A stretch of DNA of 64,000 nucleotides from NCBI RefSeq assembly GCF_004364775.1, contig NZ_SOAL01000008.1:62001-126000 (forward strand), written 5' to 3'. The stretch is from Comamonas sp. JUb58. Its GTDB lineage: Bacteria > Pseudomonadota > Gammaproteobacteria > Burkholderiales > Burkholderiaceae_C. This document shows, in pieces, positions 11,246-41,340 of this stretch (position 1 is the stretch's first letter; every line of letters begins with the position of its first letter). The notes below the pieces were generated by a model. That model made no database searches, was not told the DNA's origin, and was given only the letters and a program-made list of their open reading frames with translations. Position numbers and translations under genes: made by a program.

Positions 11246-11317
11246 TAACCTGGGTTTTCAAGCCCCTGGACGGCCGCATGGCCCCGGGGGCTGTGCCTGC
11301 CTGCGTCCTGCAGCCAG

Positions 11318-11478
11318 GGATGCTCTGCAAAACCCTCGCCAAGCGGGATGGACGCGGATAGGGATGAGACGCAAGGCATCTTTTGCAGTCAATAGCCGTA
11401 GCTATTGACAAGGAAGACAACACAGCGGATCGCCCGAGACCGCGTTCAGACCACGGCAGGGAGTTTTGCAGAGGATCC
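11318..11478 (-). mobile_element. MITE-like element, copy A
   Basis: A 161-bp non-coding element, one of three in the window. Its ends are imperfect inverted repeats (GGATGCTCTGCAAAAC... and the complement of GGATCCTCTGCAAAAC), flanked by CCAG on the left and CTAG on the right. Its centre has a 9-bp inverted repeat, GTCAATAGC/GCTATTGAC. Oriented opposite to copies B and C. It sits between the BVMO and the hydratase/dehydrogenase gene, ending 36 bases before the latter's ATG. It encodes no protein; IS5-type ends are an inference. Confidence 0.8.
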
Positions 11479-11514
11479 CTAGGCATTTTTATCTTCCACC
11501 AAGAGCTGCCAGCC

Positions 11515-19591: not shown

Positions 19592-19664
19592 CGTCCACAC
19601 CTTGGAAAAAACATGGGCATGTTGTTGCCCGAAGCCCGAATGGGATTTCAAGCGATGACTGTCG

Positions 19665-19823
19665 GGACCCTCTGCAAAACTCCCTGCCGTGGTCTGAACG
19701 CGGGCTCGGGCGATCCGCTGCGTTGTCTTTCTTGTCAATAGCTCGCTATTGACTGCAAAAGACGCCTTGCGCCTCATCCCGATCCGCGTCCATCCCGCTT
19801 GGCGAGGGTTTTGCAGAGCATCC
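19665..19823 (+). mobile_element. MITE-like element, copy B
   Basis: A 159-bp copy of the same element, in the same orientation as copy C and opposite to copy A. Ends GGACCCTCTGCAAAAC and complement of GGATGCTCTGCAAAAC; flanked by GTCG and CTCG (3 of 4 matching). It lies between the AT-rich nuclease island and the dynamin-like GTPase genes, 48 bases past the stop of the downstream GTPase. Confidence 0.8.
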
Positions 19824-19871
19824 CTCGGTACCTGGACAGGAGAGATGTGGGAGATTTGAGGCCGTTTGCAG

Positions 19872-36983: not shown

Positions 36984-37502
36984 ATGTCCCAAGATGCCAG
37001 TGTGCACCCTGGCGTGCGACTGGAAGTCAGCACGCTCTACCGCGACCACCACAGCTGGCTGCGTGCCTGGCTGCGCCGCAAACTGGGTGATGCGCACCAT
37101 GCGGCCGACCTGGCGCATGATATTTTTCTGCGCCTGCTGTTGCGCGATGAGCCGGTGGCGGCGCAGGAGCCACGCGCTTTTCTGACCACCGCTGCCAAGC
37201 ATGCGCTGCTGAACCACTACCGTCGCCAGCGCCTGGAGCAGGCCTACCTGGAGGCCTTGGCGCAGGCGCCGGCTGTGATGGCGATGTCGCCCGAGGAGCG
37301 GGCGCTCTTGCTGGAGGCGCTGGACGAGATCGACCGCATGCTGGACCAATTGCCAGCCGCCGTGCGCCAGGCATTCTTGATGGCGCAGCTGGAGGGCATG
37401 CCCCAGCTGGAGATTGCGGCGGCACTGGGCTTGTCGCTGTCTACCGTGAAGCGCTACATCGTGCAAGCGGGCATGCAGTGCTATTTCGCCGTCCATGGCT
37501 GA
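36984..37502 (+). CDS. fecI: FecI-type ECF sigma factor
   Basis: A 172-residue ECF sigma factor. Region 2 (YRDHHSWLRAWLRRKLGDAH, then AADLAHDIFLRLL) and region 4 (LPAAVRQAFLMAQLEG, then LEIAAALGLSLSTVKRYI) are complete and typical of FecI relatives. It would direct transcription of the downstream TonB receptor when FecR signals ligand binding. It overlaps the fecR start by eight bases (37495-37502). A Fur-like site stands upstream. The name is used for the family; the actual ligand is unknown. Confidence 0.92.
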   Translation: MSQDASVHPGVRLEVSTLYRDHHSWLRAWLRRKLGDAHHAADLAHDIFLRLLLRDEPVAAQEPRAFLTTAAKHALLNHYRRQRLEQAYLEALAQAPAVMAMSPEERALLLEALDEIDRMLDQLPAAVRQAFLMAQLEGMPQLEIAAALGLSLSTVKRYIVQAGMQCYFAVHG

Positions 37503-38493
37503 GGCGGCGATTCCCCGGGCCGTTGCCCAGCAGGCCGTGGAATGGATGGTGGAGCTGCAATCGCCGGATGCCAGCCCTGATCTGAAACAACAGTGGCAGC
37601 AATGGCTTGCGGCAGACCCGCTGCATGAACAGGCCTGGCAGCGCATTGAGGCCGTCAACGGCCGGCTGGGCGCGATGGCCGGGCCCGATACCCTGGACTT
37701 TGCCAAAGCCGCCTTGGCACCGCAGGGCTCGGCGCGGCGCAGGCATATGGTCAAGTCGCTGGTGGTGCTGGTTGTTGCTGGCGGCGCGGCCTGGACGGGT
37801 TACCGCCAGACCCGCTGGCGCGAGGTGCTGGCTGACCAGCGCACCGGCGTGGGCGAGCGGCGCACGATCGATCTGGAGGATGGCACGCGGGTGGTGATGA
37901 ATGCATCCACCATGCTCGATGTCCGCTTTGGCAGCAGTGAGCGCAGGCTGCGCCTGATTGCCGGCGAGATTCTGGTGCAGAGCGGCAAGGCGGGCGATGG
38001 CCGGCCCTTGCTGGTGGAGACGCCGCATGGGCTGGCGACGGCGCTGGGCACCCGTTTTTCCGTACGGCTGGATGCGGACGGGCCGACCCGGGTGGGCGTT
38101 TACGAAGGCGCGGTGCGCCTGGCACCGGTGGACGGCCAGCGCAGCCTGGTGCTGCAGGCCGGCCAGAAGAGCAGCTTTGATAGCCAGCACATCGGCGATG
38201 CCCGGCCGGCCCGCGAGGACAGCGATGCGGCCTGGGTGGATGGGGTGCTGGTTGCGCGGGATATGCGGCTAGACGACTTTTTGCAGGAGCTGGGGCGCTA
38301 CAGCGTCCATCCGCTGTCCTGCGATGACAACGTGGCGGGCCTGCGGCTGTCGGGTGCCTACCCCTTGGGCGACATTGCCAAGGTGCTGGACAACGTGGCC
38401 GGGCTGCTGTCCTTGCAGGTGCACAGCGTCAGCCGGCTATGGGGCTGGCGCGCGGCATCGTACCGCTTGGTGCGGGCAGAGCCGAAAAAATAA
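37495..38493 (+). CDS. fecR: FecR-type transmembrane sensor/anti-sigma factor
   Basis: A 332-residue FecR protein: an N-terminal cytosolic DUF4880-like part (RAVAQQAVEWMVELQSPDAS, with WQQWLAADPLHEQAWQRIE), one membrane helix at about residues 84-100 (MVKSLVVLVVAGGAAWTGY) and a periplasmic FecR domain (ERRTIDLEDGTRVVMNASTM, VETPHGLATALGTRFSV) ending in an STN-like tail. It transmits occupancy of the receptor STN domain to FecI. Translationally coupled to fecI; the receptor gene starts 117 bases downstream. Confidence 0.93.
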   Translation: MAEAAIPRAVAQQAVEWMVELQSPDASPDLKQQWQQWLAADPLHEQAWQRIEAVNGRLGAMAGPDTLDFAKAALAPQGSARRRHMVKSLVVLVVAGGAAWTGYRQTRWREVLADQRTGVGERRTIDLEDGTRVVMNASTMLDVRFGSSERRLRLIAGEILVQSGKAGDGRPLLVETPHGLATALGTRFSVRLDADGPTRVGVYEGAVRLAPVDGQRSLVLQAGQKSSFDSQHIGDARPAREDSDAAWVDGVLVARDMRLDDFLQELGRYSVHPLSCDDNVAGLRLSGAYPLGDIAKVLDNVAGLLSLQVHSVSRLWGWRAASYRLVRAEPKK

Positions 38494-38610
38494 TGGGGAT
38501 GGGCTGAGCTGTTTGGCCGAGCAGCGTTTCAAGAAGAGGAGATCGCATTGTTGATCCGAGCTTCCTCTTGACCGCCGTCGCCTCCGTGGCGAACAGAAAG
38601 TATTGCATCC

Positions 38611-41340
38611 ATGGCCCATCACCGCACATCCGCGCGCCGCTTTGGCGGCCGCTCCACCGTTCTTATCCCTAGGGACCCTCTGCAAAACTCCCTGCCGTGG
38701 TCTGAACGCGGACTCGGGCGATCCGCTGCGTTGTCTTCCTTGTCAATAGCTACGGCTATCGACTGCAAAAGACGCCTTGCGTCTCATCCCGATCCGCGCC
38801 CATTCCGCTTGGCGAGGGTTTTGCAGAGCATCCCTAGCGCATTGGCGCTAGCGCTGTCCGCTATCTTGCCGCCTGCCGCACATGCCCAGGCCCAAGAACA
38901 GGCCTCTGTAGCGGGGCAGAGCGCCCAGGCTTATGCCATTCCCGCCGGCCCGCTGGATGCAGCCTTGACCCGCTTTGCCAAGGAGAGCGGCGTGCTGCTG
39001 TCCTTCACCCCCGATACCACCGAGGGCCTGCGCAGCCCCGGCTTGCAAGGCAGGCATACGGTGCCAGATGGCCTGGCTGCCTTGGTTGCAGGCACGGGGC
39101 TGCAGGCGGTGCAGCAGGCCAGCGGTAGCTACCTGGTTGTCAAAAAGCCAGCCAGCACCACGCCTGCACCGGCCGCACCGGTCGCTGCGGCTGCGGCGCT
39201 GGCGCCCGAGCGCTCCTTGGCCGAGATCCGCGTGACGGCGCGGCGCTCGGCCAATGGCACGACCGAGGGCACGGGCTCGTACACCAACCAGGTGACCAGC
39301 ATTGCCTCCAAGACCGACCAGTCCTTCCGCGAGATTCCGCAGTCGGTGTCGGTGGTGACGCGGCAGCTGATGGACGACAAGCGGGTGGTGGATGTGGAGC
39401 AGGCCCTGACCTTGACGCCTGGCGTCATCGTGGCCGACAACTCCGGCCGCTACTTCTCGCGCGGTTTTCAGATCACCAGCATGCAGATCGATGGCGGCGC
39501 GCCGATGGCCCTGGGTGCCTACACCTACCAGCCCCAGCAGGACATGGGCTCCTACGACCGGGTGGAGGTGATGCGTGGTGCCTCCGGCCTGCTGGGCGGG
39601 GTGGGCGACCCGGGCGGCATCATCAACCTGGTGCGCAAAAAGCCTTTGGCGCAGCGACAGGTGGAGGTGTCGCAATCGCTGGGCAGCTGGGGCAACCAGC
39701 GTACCGAGGTCGATGCCACCGGCTCTCTGACGCAGGATGGCCGCATCCGGGGCCGTACGGTGCTGAGCTACCAAAAGGGCGACTCCTACTTTGACTACAT
39801 CAGCCAGGAAAAGCCCTCGCTCTATGGCGTGCTGGAGGCCGACCTGACGGCCGACACCTTGCTGACCGTTGGTGGCTCCTACGGCAAAGTGCGGCAGAAG
39901 GGCGACTATGCCGGCCTGCCACGCTTTGCCGATGGCCGCAGCCTGGGCCTGCCGCGCAGCACGGCCTTCTCCAACCCCTGGGCCTACTTCCACTACCAGA
40001 ACGAGGAGGTGTTTGCCCAGCTGGAGCACCGCTTTGACAACCACTGGAAGTTCAAGCTCAACGCCACCCATGCGCGTACCGAGCAGCAGCGCCGCTGGAG
40101 CACCTTATCCGGCGCGGTCAACCCGCAAACCCTGACCGGGCCGGTATGGCGCGGCGGTGTGCTGGACTCGTCCAACACCCAGGACATGGTGGATCTGAAC
40201 CTGAGCGGCCCCTTCTCGCTGCTGGGCCGCAGCCATGAGCTGCTCATTGGGGCCGATTGGCAGCGGGTGCGCAGCCATTGGCAGAACATGAGCTTTGCCG
40301 ACAGCGGCACGGTGGGCGGCAATGTGTTTGACATCCAGCCCTGGAACCCGGCGTTTGACCAGTTCAACCTGAACCTCAGCGAGCGCTACGGCCCCTGGGG
40401 CCAGGAGCAGCTGGGCGCCTATGGTGTTGTGCGGTTGCACCCGACCAACAAGCTGCATGTGATTGCTGGCGCCCGCGTGGCGCGTTATGAGTTCACGCAG
40501 ACCATGTCCGACATCATCGACACCGCTGGCAACACCAGCCCCTGGTCTGCCAAATCGTTCAAGGAAAGCGCCAAGCTCACGCCCTATGGCGGTGTGATCT
40601 ATGACCTGGACCCGCATTGGTCGGCCTATGTCAGCTATTCGTCGATCTTTAAACCCCAGGCGCTCAACCTGGCGGGCCCGCAGCCGGGTACGCCACTGAA
40701 CCCCATCAAGGGCAAGAGCTATGAGGCGGGGCTGAAAGGTGAGCTGATGGATGGGCGCATGAACGCGACCTTCAGCGTCTTCAACGTGGAGCGCACCGGC
40801 ACCGCAGTGCTGGATGAGCGCTATGCGGAGAACTACAGCCTCTGGGGTGCCAGCTGCTGCTACCTGCCGCAGGGCAAGGTCACCAGCCGGGGCTTTGATG
40901 TGGAAGTGGGGGGCGAGGTCTCCAGCGGCTGGCAGCTGGCGGCGGGCTATACCTTCAACCAGACGCGGGACAAGACCGAAGGCACGGTCTTCAGCAGCAT
41001 CACGCCCAAGCATTTGTTCAAGCTGTCCACCGTCTATACCTTGCCGGGTGCGTTGTCTAACTGGCGCGTGGGTGGCAGTGGCCGTATCCAGAGCACGCAG
41101 TATGTGAGCGGCTCGGTCACCAGCAGCAGCGGCGAGAGCCAGCCCTACAAGTTCACACAGGGCGGTTATGCGACCTGGGATCTGATGCTGCAGTACCGCT
41201 TTGACCCGACCTGGACCTTGAGCCTGAACCTGAACAATGTCTTTGACAAGACCTACTACCAGACCGTCAGCTCGGTCTACAACGGCAATATGCAGGCGCT
41301 GCCACGCAATGCGATGCTGACCTTGAACGGCAAGTTCTAG
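38611..41340 (+). CDS. TonB-dependent siderophore receptor with STN domain; signal peptide split by MITE
   Basis: A 909-residue FecA-like outer-membrane receptor. The STN signalling domain lies at about residues 106-175 (YAIPAGPLDAALTRFAKESG), then plug (REIPQSVSVVTRQLMDD) and beta-barrel ending in the C-terminal Phe of LTLNGKF. Residues 21-75 are encoded by MITE copy C plus its target duplication: 165 bp, exactly 55 codons, open throughout. Without it the N-terminus would read MAHHRTSARRFGGRSTVLIP joined to SALALALSAILPPAAHAQ, a normal signal peptide. The inserted segment ends RLARVLQSIP before the hydrophobic stretch, so an Arg-containing n-region may still be formed, but from which start is unclear. 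Function may be reduced, altered or retained. It is the expected target of FecI/FecR. Confidence 0.9.
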   Translation: MAHHRTSARRFGGRSTVLIPRDPLQNSLPWSERGLGRSAALSSLSIATAIDCKRRLASHPDPRPFRLARVLQSIPSALALALSAILPPAAHAQAQEQASVAGQSAQAYAIPAGPLDAALTRFAKESGVLLSFTPDTTEGLRSPGLQGRHTVPDGLAALVAGTGLQAVQQASGSYLVVKKPASTTPAPAAPVAAAAALAPERSLAEIRVTARRSANGTTEGTGSYTNQVTSIASKTDQSFREIPQSVSVVTRQLMDDKRVVDVEQALTLTPGVIVADNSGRYFSRGFQITSMQIDGGAPMALGAYTYQPQQDMGSYDRVEVMRGASGLLGGVGDPGGIINLVRKKPLAQRQVEVSQSLGSWGNQRTEVDATGSLTQDGRIRGRTVLSYQKGDSYFDYISQEKPSLYGVLEADLTADTLLTVGGSYGKVRQKGDYAGLPRFADGRSLGLPRSTAFSNPWAYFHYQNEEVFAQLEHRFDNHWKFKLNATHARTEQQRRWSTLSGAVNPQTLTGPVWRGGVLDSSNTQDMVDLNLSGPFSLLGRSHELLIGADWQRVRSHWQNMSFADSGTVGGNVFDIQPWNPAFDQFNLNLSERYGPWGQEQLGAYGVVRLHPTNKLHVIAGARVARYEFTQTMSDIIDTAGNTSPWSAKSFKESAKLTPYGGVIYDLDPHWSAYVSYSSIFKPQALNLAGPQPGTPLNPIKGKSYEAGLKGELMDGRMNATFSVFNVERTGTAVLDERYAENYSLWGASCCYLPQGKVTSRGFDVEVGGEVSSGWQLAAGYTFNQTRDKTEGTVFSSITPKHLFKLSTVYTLPGALSNWRVGGSGRIQSTQYVSGSVTSSSGESQPYKFTQGGYATWDLMLQYRFDPTWTLSLNLNNVFDKTYYQTVSSVYNGNMQALPRNAMLTLNGKF
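38673..38833 (+). mobile_element. MITE-like element, copy C, inside the TonB receptor gene
   Basis: A 161-bp element flanked by a perfect CTAG duplication (38669-38672 and 38834-38837). Imperfect terminal inverted repeats GGACCCTCTGCAAAAC and complement of GGATGCTCTGCAAAAC, with an internal inverted repeat around CAATAGCTACGGCTATCG. CTAG matches the YTAR target type of the IS5 group. Inserted in the signal-peptide codons without a frame change or stop. Confidence 0.88.

Follow-up and report, generated by a model that had tools for sequence, protein, structure and literature searches.

How can a gene for an exported protein take up a mobile element within the sequence that directs its export and still encode an intact receptor? 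This question is raised by a gene for a TonB-dependent siderophore receptor in a 64,000-nucleotide stretch of DNA from Comamonas sp. JUb58 (contig NZ_SOAL01000008.1, positions 62,001 to 126,000; the whole stretch is termed the window, and unprefixed coordinates are those of the window). The segment 38673-38833 of this gene is confirmed as a miniature inverted-repeat transposable element (MITE) whose ends are of the IS5 type and which occupies a CTAG within the receptor signal peptide. A signal peptide is described here by its amino-terminal n-region, its hydrophobic core (h-region) and the c-region that ends in the cleavage site. The features of the inserted gene are as follows:

38611..41340, forward strand: TonB-dependent siderophore receptor, 909 aa including the insert, with STN domain (130-179), Plug domain (240-337) and barrel (411-877)
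38611..38668, forward strand: native n-region codons, starting MAH
38669..38672, forward strand: left CTAG target-site duplication, read from the sequence
38673..38833, forward strand: MITE core of 161 bp, ends GGACCCTCTGCAAAAC and GGATGCTCTGCAAAAC, encoding RDPLQNSLPWSERGLGRSAALSSLSIATAIDCKRRLASHPDPRPFRLARVLQSI in the receptor frame
38834..38837, forward strand: right CTAG target-site duplication, read from the sequence
38836..38889, forward strand: h- and c-region SALALALSAILPPAAHA and the first mature residue Q, with residues as in the empty orthologue

The 161-bp core together with the 4-bp CTAG adds 165 bp, or 55 codons, without a stop, and the receptor reading frame (38611-41340) is open across the whole element; sequence, reading frame and repeats all agree with the original prediction of a 165-bp in-frame element with its CTAG at this site. 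The receptor frame is the sole stop-free frame among the six of the element, and the gene is still open because this form of the MITE adds 165 bp and possesses that one open frame. Several properties identify the element as a MITE: it is short and without a transposase gene, the 161 bp containing only the 55-codon pass-through frame; it exhibits imperfect terminal inverted repeats (38669-38688 and 38818-38837; 90% of 20 nt complementary) with CTAG on either side; it occurs in many dispersed copies, with 33 long copies among 45 matches in the genome of the window (long denoting a query span of at least 149 of 169), and three comparisons with empty sites are at hand; and an autonomous IS5-family element with matching ends and target is found in a related genome (G029). 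As RNA, the MITE is predicted to form a single hairpin across the whole element (-85.4 kcal/mol, z -8.15).

The empty site was sought in a comparison set of 53 genomes of the genus, in which G000 denotes the genome of the window. The best receptor match outside G000 is that of G019 (locus L032; 99% at the amino acid level, the match starting behind the insert), where the site is without the element and reads MAHHRTPARRFGGHSSVLIHSALALALSAILPPAAHAQ, with a DNA identity of 94.7% upstream and 96.7% downstream. Since the closest receptor found has an empty site, the insertion is a real event, and the proposed exonisation of a MITE, in frame and within a signal peptide, is borne out at the sequence level by this relative: the signal peptide expected to be joined on removal of the element is present in G019 but for four residues (S/P, R/H, T/S, P/H), so that G019 is not a relative lacking the joined peptide as well as the element, the outcome that had been named as fatal to the proposal. 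The target site of G019 is ATAG where the window has CTAG, and the two receptors differ in length by 4 residues immediately after the signal peptide. Orthologues in G026, G038 and G003 are also without an insert at the N-terminus, and the start MAH is common to the window receptor and the empty orthologues in G019, G026, G038 and G003. Outside the insert, the 850 aligned codons of the G000 and G019 receptors display 66 synonymous and 12 non-synonymous differences (ratio of non-synonymous to synonymous divergence, dN/dS, 0.05), which indicates that this part of the receptor is under strong constraint; it contains no disabling change, and both genes are open to the stop. The receptor orthologue of G040 (L037 / L347, G040:C1:2428247-2434237) is unusable as an empty site because about its first 373 residues (window numbering) are gone; a diverged MITE copy lies at its TAG stop, which the CTAG supplies.

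The receptor is not the sole gene to be affected. Our survey comprised 147 distinct copies of the MITE, from G000, G015, G019, G021, G029 and G040 with one each from G017 and G018 (two duplicate readings removed from 149), whose ends were extrapolated from BLAST and from which pieces shorter than about 110 nt of the query were omitted; they occupy 117 distinct insertion sites (98 single copies and 19 groups). A frame leading from a start codon outside, through the entire element and for at least 15 codons beyond was counted as a pass, which yielded 48 passes from the 147 copies and 21 from 39 additional weaker copies. Six rows, representing three loci, were kept, and the remainder were set aside on visual inspection as lying antisense, outside genes or ahead of the gene's own start; among all of these, sorted by eye and without a homology check, no in-frame insertion in a mature domain was convincing. 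At the three loci the same element is present in the same orientation and frame in genes for exported proteins, always after the first residues and ahead of the hydrophobic core, the identical orientation and frame being forced wherever this is the only open frame.

The two further predicted signal peptides belong to a lipoprotein with a WXXGXW repeat (Pfam PF12779) and to a TIGR02281-type clan AA aspartic protease. In G000 the lipoprotein begins MSHTPNS, followed by the 55 inserted aa and PRRSAALCAGALAVATLVTGC; it is inserted likewise in G040 and G015, and in G021 the insert is six residues shorter. The empty gene encodes MSHTPSSWRSAALCAGALAVATLVTGC in G019 and is alike in G018 and G017, and no match to the lipoprotein gene was obtained in G029. 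The ATG of the lipoprotein is preceded by GGAG. In G021, deletions of 2 and 16 bp within the element total -18 and leave the upstream ATG in the lipoprotein frame, and such compensating indels would favour translation through the element. In the three other carriers, synonymous/non-synonymous changes in the element by pair amount to 3.0/1.0, 3.5/5.5 and 3.0/6.0, which gives no firm sign of selection. In the region of the protease gene, identity downstream is 90.2-94.4% among the four carriers of the lipoprotein insertion versus 87.9-89.1% with G019, a kinship that fits a single insertion into the lipoprotein gene of the carriers' ancestor. The protease itself is inserted in G019 only (MTPSLSKPCPAP, the 55 aa, then PSRLRRLALTLAWCASAAWAAHAQ) and is empty in seven close relatives (G000, G015, G021, G029, G040, G017 and G018); the more distant protease genes of G031 and G038 are also without the element. 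On the assumption that n-regions occupy about 1% of a genome and intergenic DNA about 12%, and that around 1 in 8 insertions has the usable form, orientation and frame, approximately one usable n-region insertion would be expected per 117 sites; three were observed, and on this estimate they would not demand adaptation. Separately, a diverged copy (78%; L326, G019:C1:1054853-1055011) lies in an open frame right behind an intact-looking signal peptide, MKSPLFFVKLSLAFFPLMGVQPIWAQ, and might be a fourth fusion, at the start of the mature protein.

Does the open frame itself point to use as coding sequence? Shuffled cores are stop-free in the receptor frame with a probability of 0.22, and hence the open frame alone is unremarkable. 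The core is 161 bp long in 67 of the surveyed copies and 159 bp in another 67, the gain in length being divisible by three only for the 161-bp form. No stop is present in 58 of the 67 copies of the 161-bp form, and copies of this form that are common to several genomes outside recognisable genes are mostly open too; the open frame is therefore a property of the family. Selection on coding across the family was considered and rejected. The 67 copies give a mild pooled hint, with raw differences by codon position of 130/85/162 against some 127/122/128 expected, 130 synonymous changes against 114.5 expected (P 0.04) and 8 stops against 11 (P 0.23); this hint is driven by few subfamily sites and is gone at the site level, where variable sites (37/31/31) and distinct changes (56/38/44) show no excess at third positions. 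Codon statistics for the coding potential of the flanks failed to separate right from wrong frames (in-frame median 15; 95th percentile of the best wrong frame 25) and were left unused.

Recognition of a signal peptide depends on its h- and c-regions, and little more than a positive charge is required of the n-region. Judged by sequence and hydropathy, all three inserted proteins retain a positive n-region, a hydrophobic core and an AXA motif or lipobox. In the window receptor, the h-region core SALALALSAIL and the cleavage site between AHA and Q are unaltered; the insert ends RLARVLQSIP, and the net charge in the 20 residues before the h-region is +2 versus +3 in the empty receptor. The suggestion that the element rebuilt an n-region can therefore be retained insofar as the element adds to the n-region, but nothing was restored: as the empty receptor already has +3 before its h-region, the element lengthens it. 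The course of events that we consider probable is as follows. The MITE would have landed at a CTAG among the codons for the n-region, in a receptor gene linked to FecI- and FecR-like regulators; the ribosome would start at the native ATG (38611) and translate across the element, giving a preprotein with a signal sequence of 92 residues (20 native, 55 from the element and 17 of unchanged h-/c-region); the Sec machinery would recognise the distal h-region, and signal peptidase would cut between AHA and Q to afford a mature receptor free of element residues. The insertion would then be close to neutral, tolerated rather than adaptive, because all residues encoded by the element are discarded together with the signal peptide.

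A number of observations weigh against a native start with export and cleavage of this kind. The element encodes a second, moderately hydrophobic stretch, ALSSLSIATAI (1.72), which could mis-target the protein and which in the protease equals the real h-region (1.72 vs 1.70); the hairpin, commencing at nucleotide 59 of the gene, might lower expression; and the receptor insertion is known from one genome only. The same three observations, together with the many related receptors that could hide a loss, would be in keeping with an insertion that impairs export or expression through an over-long n-region or the 5' hairpin, leaving the receptor as a young allele with partial loss of function. We hold this to be unlikely, given that the other 850 aligned codons are without a disabling change and that a like insertion is found in the lipoprotein gene of four genomes. 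Loss of export, the other outcome envisaged in the original prediction, is neither supported nor excluded: we found no evidence for it in the unaltered h-region and AHA/Q site or in a receptor lacking disabling changes. The same verdict applies to the change in iron signalling that either outcome was expected to cause, for which there was likewise no evidence in a genome with at least 17 matches to the receptor, itself included, at E <= 1e-100 among the matches scored. From the lipoprotein come further points on the opposing side: the sum of two indels has a 1 in 3 chance of being divisible by three; the proportion of synonymous differences (pS) among the three carriers is 0.07-0.08 in the element versus 0.40-0.50 in the rest of the gene, so that the element may postdate the ancestor of the carriers or have been homogenised among copies; and downstream at the lipoprotein locus G000 shares 88.3% identity with the empty G019 against 84.3-88.0% with the other carriers, so that a single ancestral insertion is indicated only by the protease region, the empty G019 being equally near at the lipoprotein locus. 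Moreover, as shared copies outside genes are open too, the open frame is no sign of use.

A start supplied by the element would dispense with the long signal sequence altogether. A TTG near the right end (CGC TTG GCG AGG GTT TTG CAG) would give a short signal peptide, MARVLQSIP plus the h-region, and a peptide of normal signal-peptide length would result in all three genes. Nevertheless, such a start appears decidedly unlikely: by eye, the first TTG is not preceded at usable spacing by a Shine-Dalgarno sequence, a simple scan of 38450-38950 finds no sigma-70-like promoter, within the element or around it, and the native ATG precedes the element in all six inserted gene copies read; the stem region of the hairpin also takes in both TTGs, pairing the second completely and the first in part, which speaks against internal initiation. 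Misassembly at 38673-38833, which had been named as a further way for the prediction to fail, is conceivable in a 60-contig draft where the element has 33 long copies, but an artefact at this repeat is very improbable in view of the target duplication, the copy-specific substitutions (the nearest other copy in G000 is 98% identical) and the position in the interior of a 242-kb contig; the element is presumably also shorter than common reads, and three carriers of the two parallel cases, G019, G021 and G040, are single-contig genomes. A native start with translation through the element thus remains our preferred reading. A more far-reaching idea, that n-regions are a safe harbour in which bacterial MITEs become protein and that the family's single open frame, with its Arg-containing end RLARVLQSIP, acts as a portable n-region which gives a working, longer signal sequence when placed before an h-region, acquired independently by at least three exported proteins and under selection in the lipoprotein extension, strikes us as rather doubtful.

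By DNA search, 16 of the 53 genomes contain matches to the MITE, and 10 of the 53 by its translated frame; the stronger matches are those of G000, G015, G017 (DNA match at C2:201079-201136), G018, G019, G021, G029 and G040. CTAG borders many of the copies read, and other copies carry variants or are decayed. Beyond the genus, a search restricted to plasmids returned one Comamonas record (NZ_CP083452.1) and one Cupriavidus record, both partial and the latter weak. The autonomous element of G029, located via PF01609, is 1159 bp long, has the ends GGAAACTCTGCAAAAC and GGAAGGTCTGCAAAAC, is bordered by CTAG left and right, and encodes an IS5-family transposase (NF033581, 319.9 bits versus a cut-off of 140). 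End sequences and CTAG flanks are alike in the two, whereas the MITE has no transposase and shares only about 16 terminal bp, with mismatches; the G029 element is likely to be the type of the parent, and an element of this type may have mobilised the MITE. Twelve stretches at unpaired ends in G019 and G000 were read by eye, and no transposase was found between paired ends among the ends listed. A shortened IS5-type relic 7.6 kb before the window (G000:C8:54389, L369), with 855 bp between CTAG-flanked MITE-type ends, is possibly the local remains of the parent element. Head-to-tail rows of two or three MITE copies, meeting at each other's CTAG, also occur (G000:C16:47728-48057; L176 and L189 in G019), and in L176 two copies together are open over 110 codons.

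The extended signal peptides (ESPR) of autotransporters belong natively to their proteins, whereas the extension of the receptor is a mobile-element insertion. The two are alike, compared by description, in having a long signal sequence with an N-terminal extension; for the ESPR, more than 50 residues are described, with the extension before an ordinary signal peptide (PMC2805444). Rickettsia palindromic elements (RPE), according to two published accounts, are small palindromic, MITE-like repeats that sit in frame within many conserved protein genes, each encoding a conserved peptide, and one tested product retains enzyme activity (PMC10969869, PMC2229807). The Comamonas MITE is likewise a small palindromic repeat inserted in frame in protein genes (three loci), but its three convincing cases are all in signal-peptide n-regions, its frame is without coding constraint at the site level, and no family-wide conserved peptide was found among the 67 copies of 161 bp. 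In the excerpted text of PMC2229807, the enterobacterial RU-2 or Yersinia palindromic sequence is fused in YPO1552, where it contributes to the signal peptide of a putative exported protein, and no empty-site orthologue is given there. This is, by its description, the same type of in-frame MITE fusion in a predicted signal peptide; the Comamonas MITE differs in lengthening pre-existing signal peptides, in three protein families and with empty orthologues at hand. In-frame MITE fusions, one of them within a predicted signal peptide, are hence already published, and our literature searches, which were partial in coverage, returned no report of the Comamonas MITE family. What is added here is this family, unreported in the searched literature, together with empty orthologues for three signal peptides and an insertion common to four genomes. 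These loci afford natural allele pairs with and without a 55-residue n-region insert in three unrelated exported proteins, which permit a direct test of how much sequence is tolerated before the hydrophobic core and also bear on whether signal peptides are a usual entry of mobile DNA into proteins; export signals may be a gene position where such insertions survive. Signal-peptide predictors that consider no more than the first ~70 residues may miss such proteins during annotation.

The remaining features of interest in the window are the neighbours of the receptor gene, of which the sigma factor is of the extracytoplasmic function (ECF) class, and two further copies of the same MITE:

36984..37502, forward strand: FecI-like ECF sigma factor gene
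37495..38493, forward strand: FecR-like regulator gene (FecR PF04773 and DUF4880)
11316..11482, reverse strand: second copy of the MITE
19664..19825, forward strand: third copy of the MITE

With its FecI- and FecR-like neighbours and its STN domain (PF07660, 31.6 bits; cut-off 28.4), the receptor is of the FecA signalling type. It is not identified as the ferric citrate receptor FecA, scoring 69.8 bits against the equivalog NF041676 (cut-off 1100), and the general siderophore-receptor model TIGR01783 is the sole one above its cut-off among the models listed. When compared to L032 of G019, the sigma/anti-sigma/receptor stretch (37164-38493 and 38611-41340) is 94-97% identical, and two other loci display 88-94% between G000 and G019; the receptor locus may have been exchanged between species.
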